Shown piece by piece: positions 46,081 through 55,731 of a stretch of DNA of 61,202 nt. The notes beneath the pieces were generated by a model. It was not told the origin of the DNA. It saw only the letters and a program-made list of their open reading frames with translations, and ran no database searches. The position numbers and the translations under genes were made by a program. Source of the DNA: Thermoplasmata archaeon (GTDB lineage Archaea; Thermoplasmatota; Thermoplasmata; RBG-16-68-12); NCBI GenBank assembly GCA_036395115.1, contig DASWDU010000007.1:1-61202 (forward strand). The letters run 5' to 3'. Each line of letters opens with the position of its first letter. The first letter of the stretch is position 1.

Positions 46081-47103
46081 TCAGCCGAACCAGGAGTCGA
46101 GCGACCGCTGCTTCTGCTCCGACCGCGCGCTGCCGAATTTCTCGAGGGCGGCGTCGATCCGGTCGCGGGAGAAATCGTGTTCGTCGCACAGCATGCGCCG
46201 CACGCCTTCGGTATCGAGATCGCGGAACCCAATCTCGACGTCCTCGATGACCTTCGGGTGAAGGAAGATCTCGCGGACCTCCTCTTTCGATTCGATGTCG
46301 ACGCCGAGTTCCCCGAGAGCAGGCTCGAGAGAGCCGTGTTTCTTGATCAGGCCGAGCGCCTTCTTCGGGCCGATCCCTTTCACGCCGTCGTTGAAGTCCG
46401 TTCCGATGAGCAGCCCGACGTCCACCAGCTGCTCCCGTGCGATCCCGAGCGCGGCGAGGGTGGCCTCGAGGGAGATTTCCTCCGGCTGGACATCGACGTA
46501 AACGTCCTTGCGGGGAAGTTTCCGGCGGCCGGAGATCGCGAGGTTCTTCACGAGGCGCGGAGAGCCGAAGAGGAGGGAGTCAAAGTCCTGCGACGCCGCT
46601 GCGTAGGCGACCCGGGCGCGCGCCATCGCGCTCGCCTGGGCCTCCCCCTCCGCGGGCGCCTGCACCCACGGTAGGCCGAGGAACTCGAGGAGCTTCTTTG
46701 ACTGCTCGACCATCTCGTCCGTGAGCCGCGAGGTCTGCATCGCCTTCGTCCGCGCCGTTGCGAAGTCGCCGATCTCGACGGCTTCCCTCCACTCCCGTTC
46801 CGCGCGTTGCTTGACCTCCCCGCGGGCCACGAGCGTCCGTGCCTTCAGCCGCGGCGGCTCCCCGTCGAACACGAACACGGGCCGGATTCCCGCGGCGACG
46901 AAGTTCGAGAGGCGGTAGATGAGGCCGGACAGGTGGGACGTCACGCGGCCCTGCCGGTCCATGAGCGGCGTGCCGTCGGGCTGGCGGATGATCGCGAGGA
47001 ACTGGTAGAGCGTGTTGAACGCGTCGATCGCGAGGATCTTCCCGGAGAAGTCCTCGAGGGTCCGAGGCTCGGACGCGACGAGGTCCGCGAGATTCAGCCC
47101 CAT
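46081..47103 (-). CDS. fen: Flap endonuclease 1
   Basis: 340 residues, the normal archaeal FEN1 length. N and I nuclease regions: FSGKILAIDAFNTLYQFL (metal Asp), FVFDGEPPRLK, QAPAEGEAQASAMA, SQDFDSLLFG and LLIGTDFNDGVKGIGPKKAL (helix-hairpin-helix). The extreme C-terminus QKQRSLDSWFG is a PCNA-interacting PIP box. Removes 5' flaps in Okazaki fragment maturation and repair. A TnpB element has inserted just upstream, within ~45 bases of the start codon, close to its probable TATA-like box (GGCTTTACC, minus strand ~47125-47135). Confidence 0.96.
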   Translation of the reverse strand: MGLNLADLVASEPRTLEDFSGKILAIDAFNTLYQFLAIIRQPDGTPLMDRQGRVTSHLSGLIYRLSNFVAAGIRPVFVFDGEPPRLKARTLVARGEVKQRAEREWREAVEIGDFATARTKAMQTSRLTDEMVEQSKKLLEFLGLPWVQAPAEGEAQASAMARARVAYAAASQDFDSLLFGSPRLVKNLAISGRRKLPRKDVYVDVQPEEISLEATLAALGIAREQLVDVGLLIGTDFNDGVKGIGPKKALGLIKKHGSLEPALGELGVDIESKEEVREIFLHPKVIEDVEIGFRDLDTEGVRRMLCDEHDFSRDRIDAALEKFGSARSEQKQRSLDSWFG

Positions 47104-47145: not shown

Positions 47146-47158
47146 ACGGTTCTGTGAC
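47146..47158 (+). repeat. Left terminal inverted repeat of TnpB element
   Basis: ACGGTTCTGTGAC, exact reverse complement of 48495-48507. Confidence 0.7.
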
Positions 47159-47219
47159 TCATCCGGGAGATCGTCACTTTCACCCCCCTCCCCCTTGGAG
47201 CTTCAAGCCACGAAAGGCC

Positions 47220-48476
47220 ATGACAACCTCGATGGCCGTCCCGCGCGTCGTCCGCAGCCTCTCCTTCCCCGCAGGGGATCTGCCGCCCTCCCTCCTTGGC
47301 CTGCTCGCTGAGTTCCGGCTCATCGTCAACAAGTCGATCCGGATCGCGCTCCGAGACGACATCCGGTCCCGGGTCCGCCTCGCGAGGACTGCGTACCGAC
47401 GATTGTCCGAGGAACATCGTGTGTACAAGCAGTACATCCCGAGTGCGTTCGAAGTTGCCTTGGCCGCCCTAAAAGTATATCGGCGTCGGGTGAGGAAGGG
47501 AAAGCGGACCGCGGCCCCGTTCATGCGCCGCCTACTCCTGAAGGCGGAGAACCAGTCTTACCGTCTTGATCGCACCACCGGCCAGCTACGGATCCCAATC
47601 CGCCGCGGAGAATGCGTCGAGGTCAGCCTACCCGTTTCGGAATGGCATCGATCGTTCCTGTCGGACCTCGCATGGGGACTAGGCTCCCTAACCGTGACAC
47701 CCGGAAAGATCGTCGTGGCCGTCCGGAAGGATGCGCCCGAGCCGTACGAACCGACAGCTGTCGTCGCCCTCGATACGAACGAGGATTCTTTGGACGGCGT
47801 CGAGGCGGACGGCGAAACGAATCGTCTTTTGAGCCTGCCGTTCGGCGGCGTTCGCCAGCTTCAGGCAACTCACTTCCGTCGACGGCGGCTCTTAGCGAAG
47901 AAGAAGGCCCACGACCGCCGCGTCAAACGGCGTCTGCTCGCCAGGGAGGGAAAGCGCGAGCGAAATCGCGTGAGTCAGCGGCTCCACCGGGTCAGCAAGG
48001 CCCTCATCGCAGCGGCCAAAGTCAAGAAGGCGGCGATCGTCCTCGAGGACCTCACCCTCCACGGCGCGGGCGGCCGCTCCCGTCGAATGAACCGCCGCCT
48101 GTCCTCCTGGCCTCGTTCCGAGATCCACCGTCAGATCGAGTACAAGGCCCCCCTCGCCGGCGTGCCGGTCATCAAGGTCAACCCTCATTGGACCAGCAAG
48201 ACCTGCCCAGTGTGTGGCGCCCGGCGCCGAGATAGGGTGGGCCAGGATTTCGTGTGCCTTGCGTGCGACTGGGAGATGGACCGGCAGATCAACGCAGGCA
48301 TGAACATCCTGAAGACCGCCGTGGCCTCGAACGAGGCCTTGGCAAGGGCCGTACGGTTCCGGCCCGGTGCCCTCCGCGATGATGTCGTGAGTCCCCTCTA
48401 CGACTTGTCCCGAGGAGGGACGGGCGCACGGGACGAGCCGAGCGGAGTCGAGTGCCTTGCGGATGTGGTCCGATAG
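47220..48476 (+). CDS. tnpB: TnpB-family RNA-guided nuclease-like protein
   Basis: 418 residues from ATG 47220; an earlier GTG at 47154 lies inside the inverted repeat. N-terminal wedge/REC-like half, then a RuvC-like nuclease: motif I VVALDTNEDSL with Asp, motif II AAIVLEDLTLHG with Glu, zinc finger CPVCG...CLACDW, and motif III MDRQINAGMNIL. In most TnpB and Cas12 proteins motif III is DRDxNAAxN, with the second Asp catalytic; here that position is Gln. Either the element uses a variant active site, as some archaeal homologues with DRQLNA seem to, or the nuclease is dead. No tnpA is adjacent. Confidence 0.88.
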   Translation: MTTSMAVPRVVRSLSFPAGDLPPSLLGLLAEFRLIVNKSIRIALRDDIRSRVRLARTAYRRLSEEHRVYKQYIPSAFEVALAALKVYRRRVRKGKRTAAPFMRRLLLKAENQSYRLDRTTGQLRIPIRRGECVEVSLPVSEWHRSFLSDLAWGLGSLTVTPGKIVVAVRKDAPEPYEPTAVVALDTNEDSLDGVEADGETNRLLSLPFGGVRQLQATHFRRRRLLAKKKAHDRRVKRRLLAREGKRERNRVSQRLHRVSKALIAAAKVKKAAIVLEDLTLHGAGGRSRRMNRRLSSWPRSEIHRQIEYKAPLAGVPVIKVNPHWTSKTCPVCGARRRDRVGQDFVCLACDWEMDRQINAGMNILKTAVASNEALARAVRFRPGALRDDVVSPLYDLSRGGTGARDEPSGVECLADVVR

Positions 48477-48509: not shown

Positions 48510-51500
48510 CTACATCTCTGCGGCGCGCACGCCGAGGAGGAACGTCTCCTCGCCCAAGCCCGCCTCGATGACGTACGCGTCGTCCGCCGGCTCCTGCACG
48601 AACGTCACCTCGAGCGCGTTCGCCTCCCGGAGGACCATGTCTTTCCAAGGTTGCAACATGGCGCGCAGCCCCTGCGCCGCGACCAGCTCGATCTCGACGA
48701 CGCGGTCCTCCGCGATGTGCATGTCTTTGCGGGCTTCTTTGACGAGCGTCACGATTTCCTTCGCGTAGCCTTCCGCGATCAGCTCCTTCGTCATGCGCGT
48801 GTCGAGGTACACGACGCCGCCTTCGAACGGCTCCTCGACGACGTGATCGGGGACCGACTCGACGAACGACACCATCGACGGATCGATCCGGACCTTCTGT
48901 CCCTCGATCCCGACCGAGTATTCGCCTCGCTCGAGGCCCGCCTTGATCTTCCAGGCGTCCTGCGAGCGCAGCAGGATCTCGATCTTCCTCGCCCAGAGCT
49001 TGTAGGACGCGCTCACGGAGTCCATGTGCACCTGCACGTCGATTTTCATCCCGCGCCACGTGTCGTCCGGGAGGACGAGGTCGAGTTCCTTCGCGCCGCT
49101 CTGGCCGACGATGACCTTCCGGAACGCGCTCACGGCATCGTAGCCGGCCTGATCCGCCGTCTTGACAGCGATCCGGGCGACGGGCCAATACCGCTCGATT
49201 CCCGCGCGGCGCTTCGCCTGGAACGTGGCCTCGAGCGTGAGCCGCAGGAACTCGACGTAGGAGTTCACCTGTTCGTCCGAGATCTGGAGGGTGCCCGCCT
49301 CCTTCGAGGCGGTGATCGCCTGCCGGATCTGCTTCGCGATCTCCTCCGTCGGGCCCACGGTCGCGTTCGAGATCTGTTGCAGAACCGCCACCCCCTGCTC
49401 GTACCCTCTCGACTCGATCGCGGCCCTCGCCCAGCCCACGAAGTCCTGATTTCCTTCGCCGGCGAGTAGCCCGCGCTCCATCATCATCGGGATCTTGCTG
49501 ACGGCGGTGTCCTCGAGCGGCCCGAGGGAGACGCCGTCCACATCGGTCGCGAAGAGCGCCTTCCGCACGAGGTCGCGGATGCCGACAAGTTCGGCGGGGT
49601 CGCCGGTCCACGCCTCGAGGCGCGGTCCGTAGACGTCGTGGATCTCGCGCAGGATGTGCATGAGGTAGAGCAGGAGGATCGACGGCTCGCGTCCCTGGAT
49701 CGAGACGACGAGGATCGCCTGCGGCGCGCGCAGGGCGACGATCGGCACGCCGGCGATCGTCGTGCGCTTCACCGGCTTCGCGCCCGCCGGGAACGCCTTC
49801 GCGACGAACGCCTTGATCTGCTCCTCGAACGCCGCTGCCTTCGAGAGGTCTTCCACCGGGAGGTACGCGCGCGCCTCATGGCACACGATCGCCCCGGTCG
49901 AATGGAACAGGAGGGCGTCCTCGATGACGTAGCCGCCTTCCGGTTCGACGCGCACGATCGCGGTGTCCGTCGTCTGGTGCTTCCCCTCGTCGAGCGGGCG
50001 CGTGTAATGGACCTCGAAGTCGAGGTCCATCGTGCCCGCCTCCTTCGGCTTGAGTCCGAACTCGAGCGTCGTCTTTTCGTTCGGCTCGAGCTTCTCGATG
50101 ACCTTGAGTCCCTGCACGTCGACGGGCCCGGTGACGATCGGAGTGACGTGCTCGGCGGGCCAGTTCCCTTTGTTCGTGATCGCCATCTCGAACCGGCTCC
50201 AGCGGTTCGCCTGAAGGCCCGGGCCCTTCGTCTCGAGGAAGAGCCGCGGGTAGCGGTCTTTCAGGATTTGCTCGACGCGTGCCTTTGCGGTCTGTCCGGC
50301 GCGATCGATGAGCGGTTCGAGCCCCGTCAAGTCCTCGGTCCGCAGGGCGTCCTCGGCTTTCTGGAGCAGGGCCTCGACGTCGCTGACGTCCACGTGGACG
50401 GCTTTCGCGTGGGCGACGATCGCCTGGACCTTGGCGAGGTCGGCCCGGCCCTTCTCGAGCATGGTCCGCCGGCGTTGGCGCGCGAGCGACTCTTTCGCCC
50501 GCCGGAGGAAGTCCTCCATCTGGCGGGGATTTTTCTTCTGGATCGCCCCCTCGATCTTCGTGAGGTACGATTCCGCCTCGCGGACGTCGAGGTTCTGGCT
50601 CTTCGCGATCTGGATGTCGTTGATCAGGGACGCGAGCTCGACTTCGACTTTCTTCGACGCGACCTCCCCCTTCTGGCGCTCGAGGGACTCGTGGAGGCCC
50701 TGCTGGATCTCCCGCACCCGCTCGTATTTGCCCTCGGCGAACGCCTCCTCCGCCTCGCGGAGCAGGAGCTCCGCCTGGCTCGTGTCCGCGCCGATCCCTT
50801 TCATCTCCGCGACGGTGTCGCGCGCGGCCGCAAGGATGTCCGCCATGCGGTCCCGGAGTTGCGCCTGGATCGAGTCCGCCTGGGATTTCGCCTTCTCAAT
50901 GAACTGCCATGCGAGCTGGATGTCGCTCTCGAGCGTGGACTGCGCCTGGCGCAGGAGTTCGTTCGCCGCCATCGCCTGCTCCGCACCGAGCGCCTCGATG
51001 ACCCTCGCGGTCAGCGTCACGGGGCTGTCCGACAGCGCTCCCATGTCCGCCGAGGGATCTTTCGCGACCAACAGGAGCTTCTTGATGACCTCCTCGACGC
51101 CCTCGAGCTGGTGCAGGAGGCCGGTCCACTTCTCGAGGACATTCCCGTACCGGTCCTCGACCTCCTTGAGGATCTGGAGCATGTAGAGCGGAAGGAGCTT
51201 CGGCTCCTGGCCGATGAGGACCGTCGCGAGGAACGTGTGCGGCGACCGCTCGATCAGGATTTTCGAATCCCCGAAGTCGAGCCGCTTCATACCGACCCGC
51301 GTCCGCGCCTTGAACGAGTCCTTGACGAAATCCTGGACGACCGTCAGCATCCCGGAGAAGATGTCCTCGTCGATCTCCTCACGGAACTTCCGGCTGTGGT
51401 GCGCGATGAGCCGGCCGTCCGAGTGAATCAAGAAGACGTCCTCGACGAGGTACGTGGCTTCGGGCTCGACGCGGACCTCCTTCGTATCGCGGACCTCGTA

Positions 51501-54500
51501 GCGGTTCTCGTCGAACAGCCGCTGGTACGAGATGCCGACCGCGATGGGCACGGAGCCGGTGCCCTTCGGCTTCAGGCCCACCCGCACCGGCACGGACTCT
51601 CCCACCCCGATCTCGGGGATCGTCTGGACGCCCTTCGACTCGATGTCCCCGGAGAACTCGATGTGCACGTTCCGGGCCGGCAGCTTCCCGCGGTTCTCGA
51701 CCTCGAGCAGGTACTGGTTCCACTCGCCCGCCTGCAGGCCCGCGGTCGGGAGGCGGAGCGCCAGGTTCGGATAGCGGTTCTTGATGAAGTTCTGGATCTG
51801 GATGCCGATCGAGACCTCGGCCTGCTTGATCAGGATGTCCGCCATGGCCATGTCGCTCGCGCGGAGCGCGGCTTCCGCCTGGTCGAGCGAGCTCTCCGCG
51901 TCTCCGAGTTCCGCGCCGAGGCGCTTCGCGTTCGCGATCATCGTCGAGACAGCGTGGACCCGGGACTCGTACTTGTCGAGGAAGTGGCGGCCGCGCGATT
52001 CGTCGAGCGCCGCGCGCGCTTCCGAAAGGCCTGCCTGGAACCGCTCGATGTCCCCCTGGGCGATCGCGGTCCTCGCTTCCTCGAGGTGGGCCCGCGCGTC
52101 GCCTGCCGGGATCCCGAGTCGCTCCGACTGCGTCACGACCTCTTCGAGGGACTGGATCTCGCCCATCGACCGCTTCCTGAGGGAATGTCGTCTCGCGTCG
52201 AGGAGTCGTCCCTGGAGCTCCTCCCGAAGGCGACACACCGCTTCGAGGTCGTCCGCCTGCGCGGCGTCCGCGGCGTGTGTCCGGTACTCGTCCAGCTCTT
52301 CCGGGCGCAGGCCGAGGGAAGTGCCCTCCTCAACCAAGGGCGCGAACGAGTCCACGAGGGAGCCGAGGTGGGCCTTGCGCGCCATGTCGATCTCTTCGGC
52401 GACCCGCTTCGAGAAGGCGCCGACCTCGTCGAGTGTGCCGGCGTCGATATCCGCCTGCGCTTTCGACAGGAGCTCGGACGCCATGCGGACGTCGGCCCCG
52501 AGCCTCGCGGTGGCCTCCACCCTCGCGCGGAGTTCGGTAAGTCCCTCCCGGGCCGCGTCGGCCTCTTTCGCGCGGCGCGTCTCTTCGAGGATGTCCTCGA
52601 TGACCTTCTTGTATTCGATCGCCTCGACGAACCGGCCGTCGTTGATTGCCTCGCGCGCGTTCTGCAGGACGGAATCCGCTCGACCCGGATCCAAGCCGCC
52701 GGCGCGCACCTCCTCGATCTCGGTCTGCGCGAACCCCACGAGGTCTTTCGCTGCCGCCTCGAGGCCGACCGTGAGGCCGGCGGCCATGTCGCGCGTCTCC
52801 GCGAGGGCGGGCCCGATCTCCTGGTAGCGAGCCGCCTCGAACGCGGCCTCGGCCCGGGCGAGCGCCCGTTCCGACCCGAGGATCGAGATGTCCGCGCGGG
52901 CCAAGTCCAACATCGTCTTCCGGATCGCGGCGAGTTCGGCGCGGGCGGCTTCTTGGGCGTTCCGGAGCCCTTCCGCCTTCGCGTCCGTCTGCGCCCGGAG
53001 CGCCTCCGCCAATTTCTGTTCGGCGGCCCGCGCGTGTTCCACCGCATCCGCGTACTCGCCTCGCTCGAAGTGTCCTTCGGCCTTGTCGAGCAGGCCGACG
53101 GCCTCCGCGAGTTCGATCCCGGCTTCGCGGCCATCGTGGATCTTCCGTTCCGCGCGTCCGATCAGGTTCCGCGAGGCCGCGACGAGCTCGTCCATCAGCT
53201 CCTTCGCGGTGCGGTCGAGGCTCGCCAAGATCGCGTCGACGTCGTCGAAGTCCCGTTTCTCGAGCGCCCGCTCGGCGGCCCGCAGGCCCTCCTCGGCCCC
53301 GGCGATGTCGATGTCCGCCTTCCGGAGGTCCTCGATCAGCTTCTTGACCGTGATGAACTTCGTCGCGGCGCCGCGTGCCTTGTCGAGCACGCGCCGCTGC
53401 TCCTCCAGGTACCGCTCCCTCCGTCGCTCCGCGACCTTCCGTTCGAGTTCCCCGAGCGCATCGAGGACCGCCGCGTGCCGGCCTTCGTTCACGGCCGTCT
53501 CCATCGTCGCGAGGATCGGATCCAGATCGTCCGGAGGAACGCCCTCTTTCTTCGCCTCGTCAGCGAGACGCCAGGCGCGCTCGGACGCCTCCCGTGCCTG
53601 CCACTGCAAGGTGACTTTGACGCCCTCAACGATCCCTTCCGCGGAGGCGACGAGGTGCTCCGCCTCGTCCATCGCCCCGCCCTCGATCGCCCGTTCCGCC
53701 GCGTCGAGGACCTCCGTGGCCTTCTCGAGGTCGAGGTGGTTCGCGACGAGGTCCGCCATCTGCGCGCGGACCGCCTCCGTGCGGCGATGGATCGCCTCCG
53801 TGCGCTCCTGCTTCGCCCGGACCTCCTCCTTCACCGTCTTCTGTTTCGTGTCGTTCGCGGTCCGCGTGATTTCCTCGATCTCGGAGATGCAGGCCTTGCC
53901 GATGTAGAGCGTGTCGCCGTATCGCGCCTCCGCGTACGCGGTCCCCGCCTGCGAGAGCATCAGTTCTGCCCCCTCGATCGGGACTCCGTCCGACCGTGCG
54001 CCCACGACGACGCCGCGCGCCTCTCCGAGCACCTCCGCGGCGGCGCTGCGCAACAGCTCGCGCGTCGCGTGGATGTCGTGCTCGATGCCGTCGAGGAGAG
54101 CGTCCGCGTTGAGGAACCGGTGTTCCTCGACCGCGATCGCGACGTCCGCGAGCTTGCCTTCGAGGGCCACCGTGTCGGTCTGGCCCGCCTGGCGCAATCC
54201 GACGATGTCGTCGCGGGCGCGGAGCACGTGTTCGCTCAGGCGGGCCTCCGTCTGGGCGTCGGCGTCCGCCATCCGACTGTCGATGATCGCCTGCATGTCG
54301 ATTTGTCGTCCCAGCGAAATCGCGTCGTCGACCTCCCGGAGGAGCTGCCGCGCCACCGCGGGGTCGAGGCCCCGGGCCGCGTTCGCCAGGATGATCTGCA
54401 AGGACCGCTCCATGATCGAGCGGTGGTGCGCGTCGCGCGCCGATTCCGCGGTGCGACGCGCCCGGGCCACGAGACGTCGTGCGTTCGGCAGGTCGTGGTC

Positions 54501-55667
54501 TTCGAGCGCACGCGTCAGGTCGACCAAGGTCGTCTCGAACTCGCCTGCCTCCGCACCGAGCTTCCGCAGGTCTTCCGCGTCGAGCCGGAGGCTCGCGAAC
54601 GCGTCTTGGACGGACTTCAGGAGGGCGGCCTCACGCACCGCCTCGTGAGCGTCCCGCGCGAGGGCCCGCACCTTCGCATACTCTTTCGATGCGAGGGCCG
54701 TCGAGGCCTGTCCGAACATCGCTTCCGCGTGGCTCACGTCGGCGCCCTTCCGCCGTTCGCGCGACGACTCGCGTTCCGACTCTCGGAGGGACGATTCGGC
54801 CGCAGCGTACCGCCGCGCCTCCCGAAGGCTGTTCCGCGCCCGCTGGGCGAGGAGCGGGATGTCCGCGAACACGCCGCGCCGGAGCGCATCCCGCGCCTGG
54901 GTGAGGACCTTCCGGGCGTCGGTGATGTTGACGCCGTCCTTCCGGGCCGCATCGACGTCCGCCGCCGCGCGGTCCAGGATGTCCTCCGCCCGGGCGTACT
55001 TCCGCTGCTGCTCCGCCTTCTCGATCGCCTTCGCGGTGAGCGTCCGGATCTTGCCGTATTCCCGGCGCGCGAGCGCCTTCCGGCCGTCTGCGACGAGCGC
55101 CTCCGCGTCCTCGACGTGGCCCCCGCGCTCTTTCGCGTACCGGACCTGCGAGGCCGCCTTGTCGAGCAGGCCTTGGAGCGCCCTCTCGCGGCGTTGGTCC
55201 AGCGTCCGGGTCGAGACGCGCCGCAGGAGCTTCTCGGCGGTGACGAAGTCCCCGCGGGCACTGATCGCCCGAGCCTGTTCGATATTCCGTTGGAACGCGA
55301 GGGTTTCGATGCCCGCTTCCTTCGCTTCCTCTAGGATCGTATCCGACCGGGCGAGCACCTCGACGACCCGCGCCTTGCGTTTCGCGATTTCGAGCGTGCG
55401 TCGCGAGGCACGGGCCAGATCCAGGGCCTTGCCGAGGTCGCCCGCGGCTTCCGTCTGCTCCGCCCGCTCTGTCAGCCGTCGCGCGAACGAGGCGTCCACC
55501 GAGTCCGGGGTCGACGCGACGAGGTCCTTCCGCGCCGCATCGATCGCCTTTCGCACGACGTCGGGCGCGGCACGCGCCGTCGGCGCGCGGTCGAACGGCT
55601 GCCCGCAGACGTCGCACGTGGTGCGTCCATCCGAGACCTCCGATTCGCAGAGTGGGCAGTGGGCCAT
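48510..55667 (-). CDS. Giant helical-repeat protein with zinc ribbon, longin-like domains and IleRS-type C-terminus
   Basis: 2385 residues from ATG 55667 (TTG 55676 adds three). Order: zinc ribbon (CPLCE...CDVCGQPF), then about 20 helical repeats of 60-90 residues with a core GxDxxxAxxLLxxAExALxxG, then xFxxAxxLxxxA. Twice comes a beta sandwich (LRLPTAGLQAGEWNQYLLEV; LETKGPGLQANRWSRFEMAI) followed by a roadblock/longin-like domain (VFLIHSDGRLIAHHSRKF; ALLFHSTGAIVCHEARAY). The last ~250 residues (48513-49262) resemble the anticodon-binding end of archaeal IleRS (DUF5915): AKRRAGIERYWPVARIAV and LDTRMTKELIAEGYAKEIV. No membrane helix or ATPase motif is seen, so a cytosolic scaffold or filament is inferred. 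A TATA box TATAAAT lies near 55735-55741. Confidence 0.85.
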   Translation of the reverse strand: MAHCPLCESEVSDGRTTCDVCGQPFDRAPTARAAPDVVRKAIDAARKDLVASTPDSVDASFARRLTERAEQTEAAGDLGKALDLARASRRTLEIAKRKARVVEVLARSDTILEEAKEAGIETLAFQRNIEQARAISARGDFVTAEKLLRRVSTRTLDQRRERALQGLLDKAASQVRYAKERGGHVEDAEALVADGRKALARREYGKIRTLTAKAIEKAEQQRKYARAEDILDRAAADVDAARKDGVNITDARKVLTQARDALRRGVFADIPLLAQRARNSLREARRYAAAESSLRESERESSRERRKGADVSHAEAMFGQASTALASKEYAKVRALARDAHEAVREAALLKSVQDAFASLRLDAEDLRKLGAEAGEFETTLVDLTRALEDHDLPNARRLVARARRTAESARDAHHRSIMERSLQIILANAARGLDPAVARQLLREVDDAISLGRQIDMQAIIDSRMADADAQTEARLSEHVLRARDDIVGLRQAGQTDTVALEGKLADVAIAVEEHRFLNADALLDGIEHDIHATRELLRSAAAEVLGEARGVVVGARSDGVPIEGAELMLSQAGTAYAEARYGDTLYIGKACISEIEEITRTANDTKQKTVKEEVRAKQERTEAIHRRTEAVRAQMADLVANHLDLEKATEVLDAAERAIEGGAMDEAEHLVASAEGIVEGVKVTLQWQAREASERAWRLADEAKKEGVPPDDLDPILATMETAVNEGRHAAVLDALGELERKVAERRRERYLEEQRRVLDKARGAATKFITVKKLIEDLRKADIDIAGAEEGLRAAERALEKRDFDDVDAILASLDRTAKELMDELVAASRNLIGRAERKIHDGREAGIELAEAVGLLDKAEGHFERGEYADAVEHARAAEQKLAEALRAQTDAKAEGLRNAQEAARAELAAIRKTMLDLARADISILGSERALARAEAAFEAARYQEIGPALAETRDMAAGLTVGLEAAAKDLVGFAQTEIEEVRAGGLDPGRADSVLQNAREAINDGRFVEAIEYKKVIEDILEETRRAKEADAAREGLTELRARVEATARLGADVRMASELLSKAQADIDAGTLDEVGAFSKRVAEEIDMARKAHLGSLVDSFAPLVEEGTSLGLRPEELDEYRTHAADAAQADDLEAVCRLREELQGRLLDARRHSLRKRSMGEIQSLEEVVTQSERLGIPAGDARAHLEEARTAIAQGDIERFQAGLSEARAALDESRGRHFLDKYESRVHAVSTMIANAKRLGAELGDAESSLDQAEAALRASDMAMADILIKQAEVSIGIQIQNFIKNRYPNLALRLPTAGLQAGEWNQYLLEVENRGKLPARNVHIEFSGDIESKGVQTIPEIGVGESVPVRVGLKPKGTGSVPIAVGISYQRLFDENRYEVRDTKEVRVEPEATYLVEDVFLIHSDGRLIAHHSRKFREEIDEDIFSGMLTVVQDFVKDSFKARTRVGMKRLDFGDSKILIERSPHTFLATVLIGQEPKLLPLYMLQILKEVEDRYGNVLEKWTGLLHQLEGVEEVIKKLLLVAKDPSADMGALSDSPVTLTARVIEALGAEQAMAANELLRQAQSTLESDIQLAWQFIEKAKSQADSIQAQLRDRMADILAAARDTVAEMKGIGADTSQAELLLREAEEAFAEGKYERVREIQQGLHESLERQKGEVASKKVEVELASLINDIQIAKSQNLDVREAESYLTKIEGAIQKKNPRQMEDFLRRAKESLARQRRRTMLEKGRADLAKVQAIVAHAKAVHVDVSDVEALLQKAEDALRTEDLTGLEPLIDRAGQTAKARVEQILKDRYPRLFLETKGPGLQANRWSRFEMAITNKGNWPAEHVTPIVTGPVDVQGLKVIEKLEPNEKTTLEFGLKPKEAGTMDLDFEVHYTRPLDEGKHQTTDTAIVRVEPEGGYVIEDALLFHSTGAIVCHEARAYLPVEDLSKAAAFEEQIKAFVAKAFPAGAKPVKRTTIAGVPIVALRAPQAILVVSIQGREPSILLLYLMHILREIHDVYGPRLEAWTGDPAELVGIRDLVRKALFATDVDGVSLGPLEDTAVSKIPMMMERGLLAGEGNQDFVGWARAAIESRGYEQGVAVLQQISNATVGPTEEIAKQIRQAITASKEAGTLQISDEQVNSYVEFLRLTLEATFQAKRRAGIERYWPVARIAVKTADQAGYDAVSAFRKVIVGQSGAKELDLVLPDDTWRGMKIDVQVHMDSVSASYKLWARKIEILLRSQDAWKIKAGLERGEYSVGIEGQKVRIDPSMVSFVESVPDHVVEEPFEGGVVYLDTRMTKELIAEGYAKEIVTLVKEARKDMHIAEDRVVEIELVAAQGLRAMLQPWKDMVLREANALEVTFVQEPADDAYVIEAGLGEETFLLGVRAAEM

Positions 55668-55731
55668 GGCCTCCAACCGAGGGGATACCCTCCGCGACGG
55701 GAGGGCAGACGGCGTCGGATGCCCGCTTGGC

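Follow-up and report, generated by a model that had tools for sequence, protein, structure and literature searches.

A single open reading frame in a 61,202-nucleotide stretch of Thermoplasmata DNA (hereafter, the window) encodes a giant protein whose last 253 residues show full-length homology to the C-terminal junction and tRNA-binding subdomains of isoleucyl-tRNA synthetase (IleRS) of the archaeal/eukaryotic type. The fusion has been conserved in at least eight archaeal families, purifying selection on its C-terminal module is strong (dN/dS about 0.1), and phylogeny indicates that the module was captured once, from an ileS gene of the class to which these archaea belong. The remainder of the giant is made up of a zinc ribbon, helical repeats and two units of paired Ig-like and longin domains, and on balance we favour the view that the giant is a scaffold of the longin/Ras-GTPase kind whose IleRS tail has been repurposed.

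Architecture of the giant protein

The reading frame (48510..55676, minus strand, as are all features of the giant) encodes 2,388 residues from its opening TTG, or 2,385 from the ATG at residue 4 (gene 48510..55667). The latter start is in line with the orthologues, which are 2,385–2,386 residues long, begin M-A-R-C-P-L-C and have the same N-terminal zinc ribbon. This ribbon (CPLC...CDVC, residues 6–27, 55596..55661) matches PF13240 under the cut-off (E 0.048), and its four cysteines are also present in the giants of families f1 and f5. It is followed by a stretch of about 1,270 residues whose sequence pattern is that of long helical-hairpin repeats (residues 28–1295, 51792..55595), in which no Pfam family was found above cut-off.

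Two Ig-longin units (residues 1296–1560 and 1803–2060) flank a second helical-repeat region recognized from sequence (residues 1561–1802, 50271..50996). The first unit consists of a CARDB/adaptin-appendage-like Ig domain (residues 1296–1405, 51462..51791; PF07705 E 1.3e-7, AlphaFold model, Foldseek/VIA matches) and a longin domain (residues 1410–1538, 51063..51449). The second, homologous to the first (32% identity, E 1.5e-45), repeats the Ig-like domain (residues 1803–1912, 49941..50270) and, by the same homology, the longin domain (residues about 1913–2040, 49557..49940). After a short linker, the IleRS-like module runs from residue 2136 to the end. It comprises an SD2-like junction subdomain (residues 2136–2297, 48786..49271), assigned by profile, structure and conservation, and an SD3-like terminal subdomain, tRNA-interacting in IleRS (residues 2298–2388, 48513..48785), assigned by profile and structure. 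No credible transmembrane segment was found in the giants, and we infer that the protein is probably cytosolic.

The downstream neighbour is a FEN1/XPG nuclease gene (46081..47103, minus strand; Pfam XPG_I/XPG_N), a synteny shared by f1, f2, f3 and f5, in all of which FEN1 comes directly after the giant. Between the two genes in the window sits a TnpB/IS605 OrfB-like gene (47154-48476, plus strand), convergent with the giant; the nearest relative (L033) has such an insertion at the same place.

The C-terminal module is an IleRS tail

A preliminary description, made from the sequence of the window, proposed that the C-terminal ~250 residues follow the archaeal IleRS tail (DUF5915), and our searches bear this out. 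The motifs it quoted are all present, namely AKRRAGIERYWP (residues 2154–2165), VARIAV (2166–2171), SVGIEGQKVRIDPSMVSF and LDTRMTKELIAEGYAKEIVTLVKEARKD, and the profile search it called for gave a significant match to PF19302 (DUF5915; 45.9 bits, cut-off 27; E 6e-12). The NCBIfam MupA IleRS model also matches weakly, at profile positions 795–989 of 1024. Homology begins at residue 2136 (window position 49271), slightly earlier than had been claimed. When 22 giant modules were aligned by hhalign with the tails of 23 IleRS from the same class, the two profiles matched over 254 columns (probability 100, E 2.6e-72). Moreover, a profile built from the giants alone and searched against the PDB with hmmsearch gave significant matches only to IleRS, including the yeast enzyme (8wnd, E 1.8e-14) and PmIleRS2 (8c8u, E 2e-8).

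Structure prediction, likewise proposed in the preliminary description, returned an IleRS-type fold: the AlphaFold model of the module (pLDDT 94.6) finds its best match in residues 787–1032 of PmIleRS2 (8c8w; Z 20.3, 245 residues), with a lower match to yeast IleRS bound to tRNA-Ile (8WND, Z 16.7). Chance resemblance of motifs is rejected by the profile, profile-profile and structure matches together. The corresponding region of IleRS is named in the literature as the junction domain and the C-terminal tRNA-interacting domain; in PmIleRS2 the C-terminal domain is divided into subdomains SD1–SD3 (PMC10485003). Yeast IleRS truncated at 984, and so lacking the C-terminal tRNA-interacting domain, no longer charges tRNA (PMC7955072).

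The giant had been said to lack a synthetase core, and the class I catalytic core with its HIGH/KMSKS motifs (PF00133) is indeed absent from it at E 0.1. The classical anticodon-binding domain (Anticodon_1, PF08264) is absent as well, so that the earlier label of an anticodon-binding-like module is apt for an IleRS junction plus terminal subdomain but not for that domain. With neither core nor PF08264, the giant is not a degraded IleRS. Both domains are present in the genome's own ileS, which encodes the core, PF08264 and DUF5915, followed by an added HhH-zinc ribbon-DUF835 tail. An extra tail of this kind, with HhH_5, zinc ribbons and DUF835, is a feature of IleRS in this class (as at G000:C18, which is L086 1150-5499, and at L062 7813-12303), and many of the class's IleRS frames are about 1390–1540 residues long.

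The fusion is conserved across families

A query spanning the joint matches without interruption in 30 of the 37 genomes of the order, over six families. Four of the others are broken at contig ends, and three, 75–86% complete, gave no spanning match. The same joint occurs in two further families of the class, f17 and f20 (genomes G060, G075, G109, G127 and G133). Where other classes of the phylum were sampled, the module was found only in frames of IleRS size among the matches listed. The named relatives are metagenome-assembled genomes of Thermoplasmata/Euryarchaeota from soil and the subsurface, and those that bear the joint come from separate studies, one of them being a single contig.

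The preliminary description had asked whether a normal ileS exists in the same genome, and a complete copy is present on another contig. Because the joint is intact in so many genomes of the order and this ileS lies elsewhere, the fusion is not an assembly join. Metagenome-derived genomes could in principle contain an unrelated frame welded to an ileS 3′ end by assembly or binning, but with the same joint recurring across separate studies and in a single-contig genome, with GC3 homogeneous across it, and with only about 31% identity between the giant's module and the tail of the genome's own IleRS, the chance of such an artefact is negligible. Of the two outcomes named at the outset as fatal to the proposal, a missing profile match and an assembly join, neither was found, and the described fusion to helical repeats and longin-like domains stands. 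Our literature search found no mention of DUF5915, nor of IleRS, Thermoplasmatota and fusion together.

A single capture from ileS

In a tree rooted with IleRS of other classes, the 22 giant modules form one clade (support 95/94), nested within the IleRS of the class and placed beside those of f7 and f20. The single clade points to one capture; repeated capture in separate lineages is unsupported by this topology. The host type of protein is probably older than the capture, since another class of the phylum has a 2720-residue helical-repeat protein with one Ig-longin unit and without the IleRS module (L120, 8199-16361).

The neighbourhood of the giant suggests how the capture might have happened. 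Relatives without the giant (L084, L085 and L088) have FEN1 directly upstream of ileS, a conserved locus. In f4 and f6 the giant precedes ileS on the same strand, at a distance of 49–256 nt, and in f1, f2, f3 and f5 it lies, as in the window, next to FEN1. Given this placement at the FEN1-ileS locus, a local duplication that took in only the 3′ end of ileS would be the simplest route. It stays a proposal because the giants of f17 and f20 are not next to ileS; nor are the two genes adjacent in f1, f2, f3 and f5. Steps around the capture are nonetheless visible, in the module-less giant and in the FEN1-ileS locus where the giant sits.

Longin domains and small GTPases

The description of longin-like domains holds at the level of the fold. 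In the AlphaFold model of the Ig-longin unit (pLDDT 84), the longin half best matches the Sec22b longin (1ifq_B; Z 14.3, 125 of 128 residues aligned, 2.4 A), then VAMP7, AP sigma subunits and zeta-COP, and its elements follow the longin order beta-beta-alpha-beta-beta-beta-alpha-alpha. The Ig half is similar to adaptin appendages, to the TRAP complex and to complement/A2M domains. On the predicted structure, then, longin identity is confirmed at fold level. By sequence, no longin family in Pfam or NCBIfam matched at E 0.01, and a search of the unit against the PDB found no relative beyond two marginal YcnI chains (E 0.015). Relatives gave two weak Robl_LC7 matches below cut-off; a roadblock domain in place of a longin was rejected, the order of strands and helices fitting the latter.

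The same longin also ends other proteins in these genomes, both surface proteins with DUF11/CARDB and a single TM segment and multi-TM proteins with DUF835. In the paralogues L092, L093, L094 and L096, DUF11/CARDB repeats and a TM segment precede a longin at the cytosolic C-terminus; L091 and L097 have multi-TM regions and then a longin, and L097 also has DUF835.

At all four f17 loci the giant is next to a Ras-family GTPase gene (PF00071, E about 1e-30), as at L068 6514-7383 and L069 3-824. Neither in the window nor in the other families examined was such a gene found beside the giant, and the GTPase link of the window's giant consequently rests on the f17 relatives and on paralogues. Of the 17 GTPase genes in the window's genome, four have a longin gene immediately before them, where 0.05 would be expected under simple uniform placement, which is not operon-aware; this count was never reached in 20,000 random placements. 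The longin genes directly upstream of Ras/Roc-like GTPase genes are at G000 C32:16100-16955, C36:47100-48314, C1:7335-8249 and C43:1450-2328. Taken together, this looks like a longin-GTPase system in Thermoplasmata.

The module is conserved but has lost IleRS-invariant residues

Between congeneric genomes, the junction part of the module has a dN/dS of 0.06–0.09 and a mean identity of 87%, tying with longin 1 as the best-conserved portion of the giant; for the terminal part the dN/dS is 0.12–0.21. We compared the 22 giant modules with 25 IleRS tails, in which 21 positions are invariant. The glycines, M2268 and other core positions are retained in the giants. The apparently functional residues have for the most part disappeared: R2163 and Q2313 are kept in none of the 22 giants, R2310 and W2372 in two, R2311 in three and N2194 in five, and R2353 too is mostly lost. 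Alignments read by eye show N2194, Q2313 and a basic residue at 2163 in the bacterial and yeast enzymes as well. Conversely, K2243 is invariant in the giants and present in 1/25 IleRS tails. Basic character persists at two positions, with R or K at 2316 and at 2155 in all 22 giants.

Since the residues invariant in IleRS are mostly lost, canonical recognition of tRNA-Ile by the module is doubtful. Purifying selection combined with this loss suggests that the module is maintained for something other than its role in IleRS. The idea of a tRNA-binding module put to new use thus survives as regards descent from IleRS, and is weakened as regards the tRNA.

Possible functions of the giant

Our preferred reading, which we think somewhat better than an even bet, is that the giant would act as a cytosolic scaffold or docking platform for Ras-type switches. 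Its two Ig-longin units would bind Ras-like small GTPases, and the IleRS module would now serve for docking, with a protein partner most likely, rather than for reading tRNA-Ile in the manner of a synthetase. Genomic context points to small-GTPase/longin signalling or trafficking; we found no support for the cytoskeletal role first suggested as one option.

RNA is a possible ligand, and the module may bind it in another way, even if the pattern of substitutions argues against synthetase-like tRNA binding. It is conceivable, if rather unlikely, that the module has kept an affinity for tRNA or other RNA and anchors tRNA, IleRS-tRNA complexes or ribosomes on the longin/GTPase scaffold, making of it a translation-linked GTPase platform. 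The parent domain is an RNA binder without which, as noted above, yeast IleRS cannot charge; the fold is conserved over the length of the module, basic positions 2155 and 2316 persist, and in f4 and f6 ileS directly follows the giant. Set against this are the losses at R2163, N2194, R2310, R2311, Q2313 and R2353, and locus history is enough to explain the ileS/FEN1 neighbourhood. The terminal subdomain is also often strongly acidic (net charge -10 to -21 in many giants), although as a sign of RNA binding net charge is uninformative, IleRS tails being acidic too.

Less likely again is that the module binds IleRS itself, or occupies the surface that the IleRS tail contacts (for example on the core of the enzyme or on its class-specific DUF835 tail), so that the giant recruits or regulates the synthetase. 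Common ancestry of module and tail, adjacency to ileS in f4 and f6, the extra HhH-zinc ribbon-DUF835 tail of the class's IleRS and the presence of DUF835 and longin on one polypeptide elsewhere would all suit this arrangement, but some of the lost residues may be ones turned towards the rest of IleRS, and the genes are apart in the six families named above.

As a still more speculative possibility, a Ras/longin platform might employ the tail derived from IleRS as a sensor of tRNA, IleRS or isoleucine status. LeuRS signals amino-acid supply to the Rag GTPases, and such a platform, if real, would be a prokaryotic counterpart of that pathway in logic. That the tail is instead a passive, functionless leftover of duplication at the FEN1-ileS locus, for which partial duplication is a natural route, is very improbable given its dN/dS, a junction part as conserved as longin 1, and its retention in at least eight families.

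Comparison with known systems

The closest known relative of the module is its parent family, the C-terminal region of IleRS (SD2-SD3 of PmIleRS2; yeast 8WND/8Z1P), with which it shares sequence and fold homology over its full length. Unlike IleRS, the giant has no catalytic core, editing domain or PF08264, has lost IleRS-invariant residues, and is joined to longin units. Domains derived from aminoacyl-tRNA synthetases are found outside synthetases in the HisRS-like domain of GCN2 and the anticodon-binding domain of POLG2, where, likewise, a synthetase appendage is reused in a non-synthetase protein. The giant differs from these cases in its synthetase, its domain, its longin/GTPase-type partner and its archaeal setting, and it offers a clear single-origin capture of a tRNA-binding synthetase appendage by a non-synthetase giant. 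Synthetase-like proteins have been reviewed (PMC9437257).

For the host protein, the nearest parallel is a group of Asgard multidomain proteins that combine an adaptin appendage region with a longin and are proposed to act on small GTPases (mBio 2024, PMC10936438). The pairing of Ig/appendage-like and longin domains is the same, whereas the Asgard proteins carry Vps28-C and the Thermoplasmata giants carry helical repeats and the IleRS tail instead. With the eukaryotic longins (Sec22b, VAMP7, AP sigma and zeta-COP) the giant has a predicted fold in common (Z 9–14) but no detectable sequence family match, so that membership is by fold only. Longins of the Sec22/AP-sigma type, appendage-like Ig domains and Ras-family GTPases thus occur together in Thermoplasmata, outside the Asgard archaea, a grouping relevant to dating the origin of the components from which eukaryotic trafficking and GTPase platforms were built.
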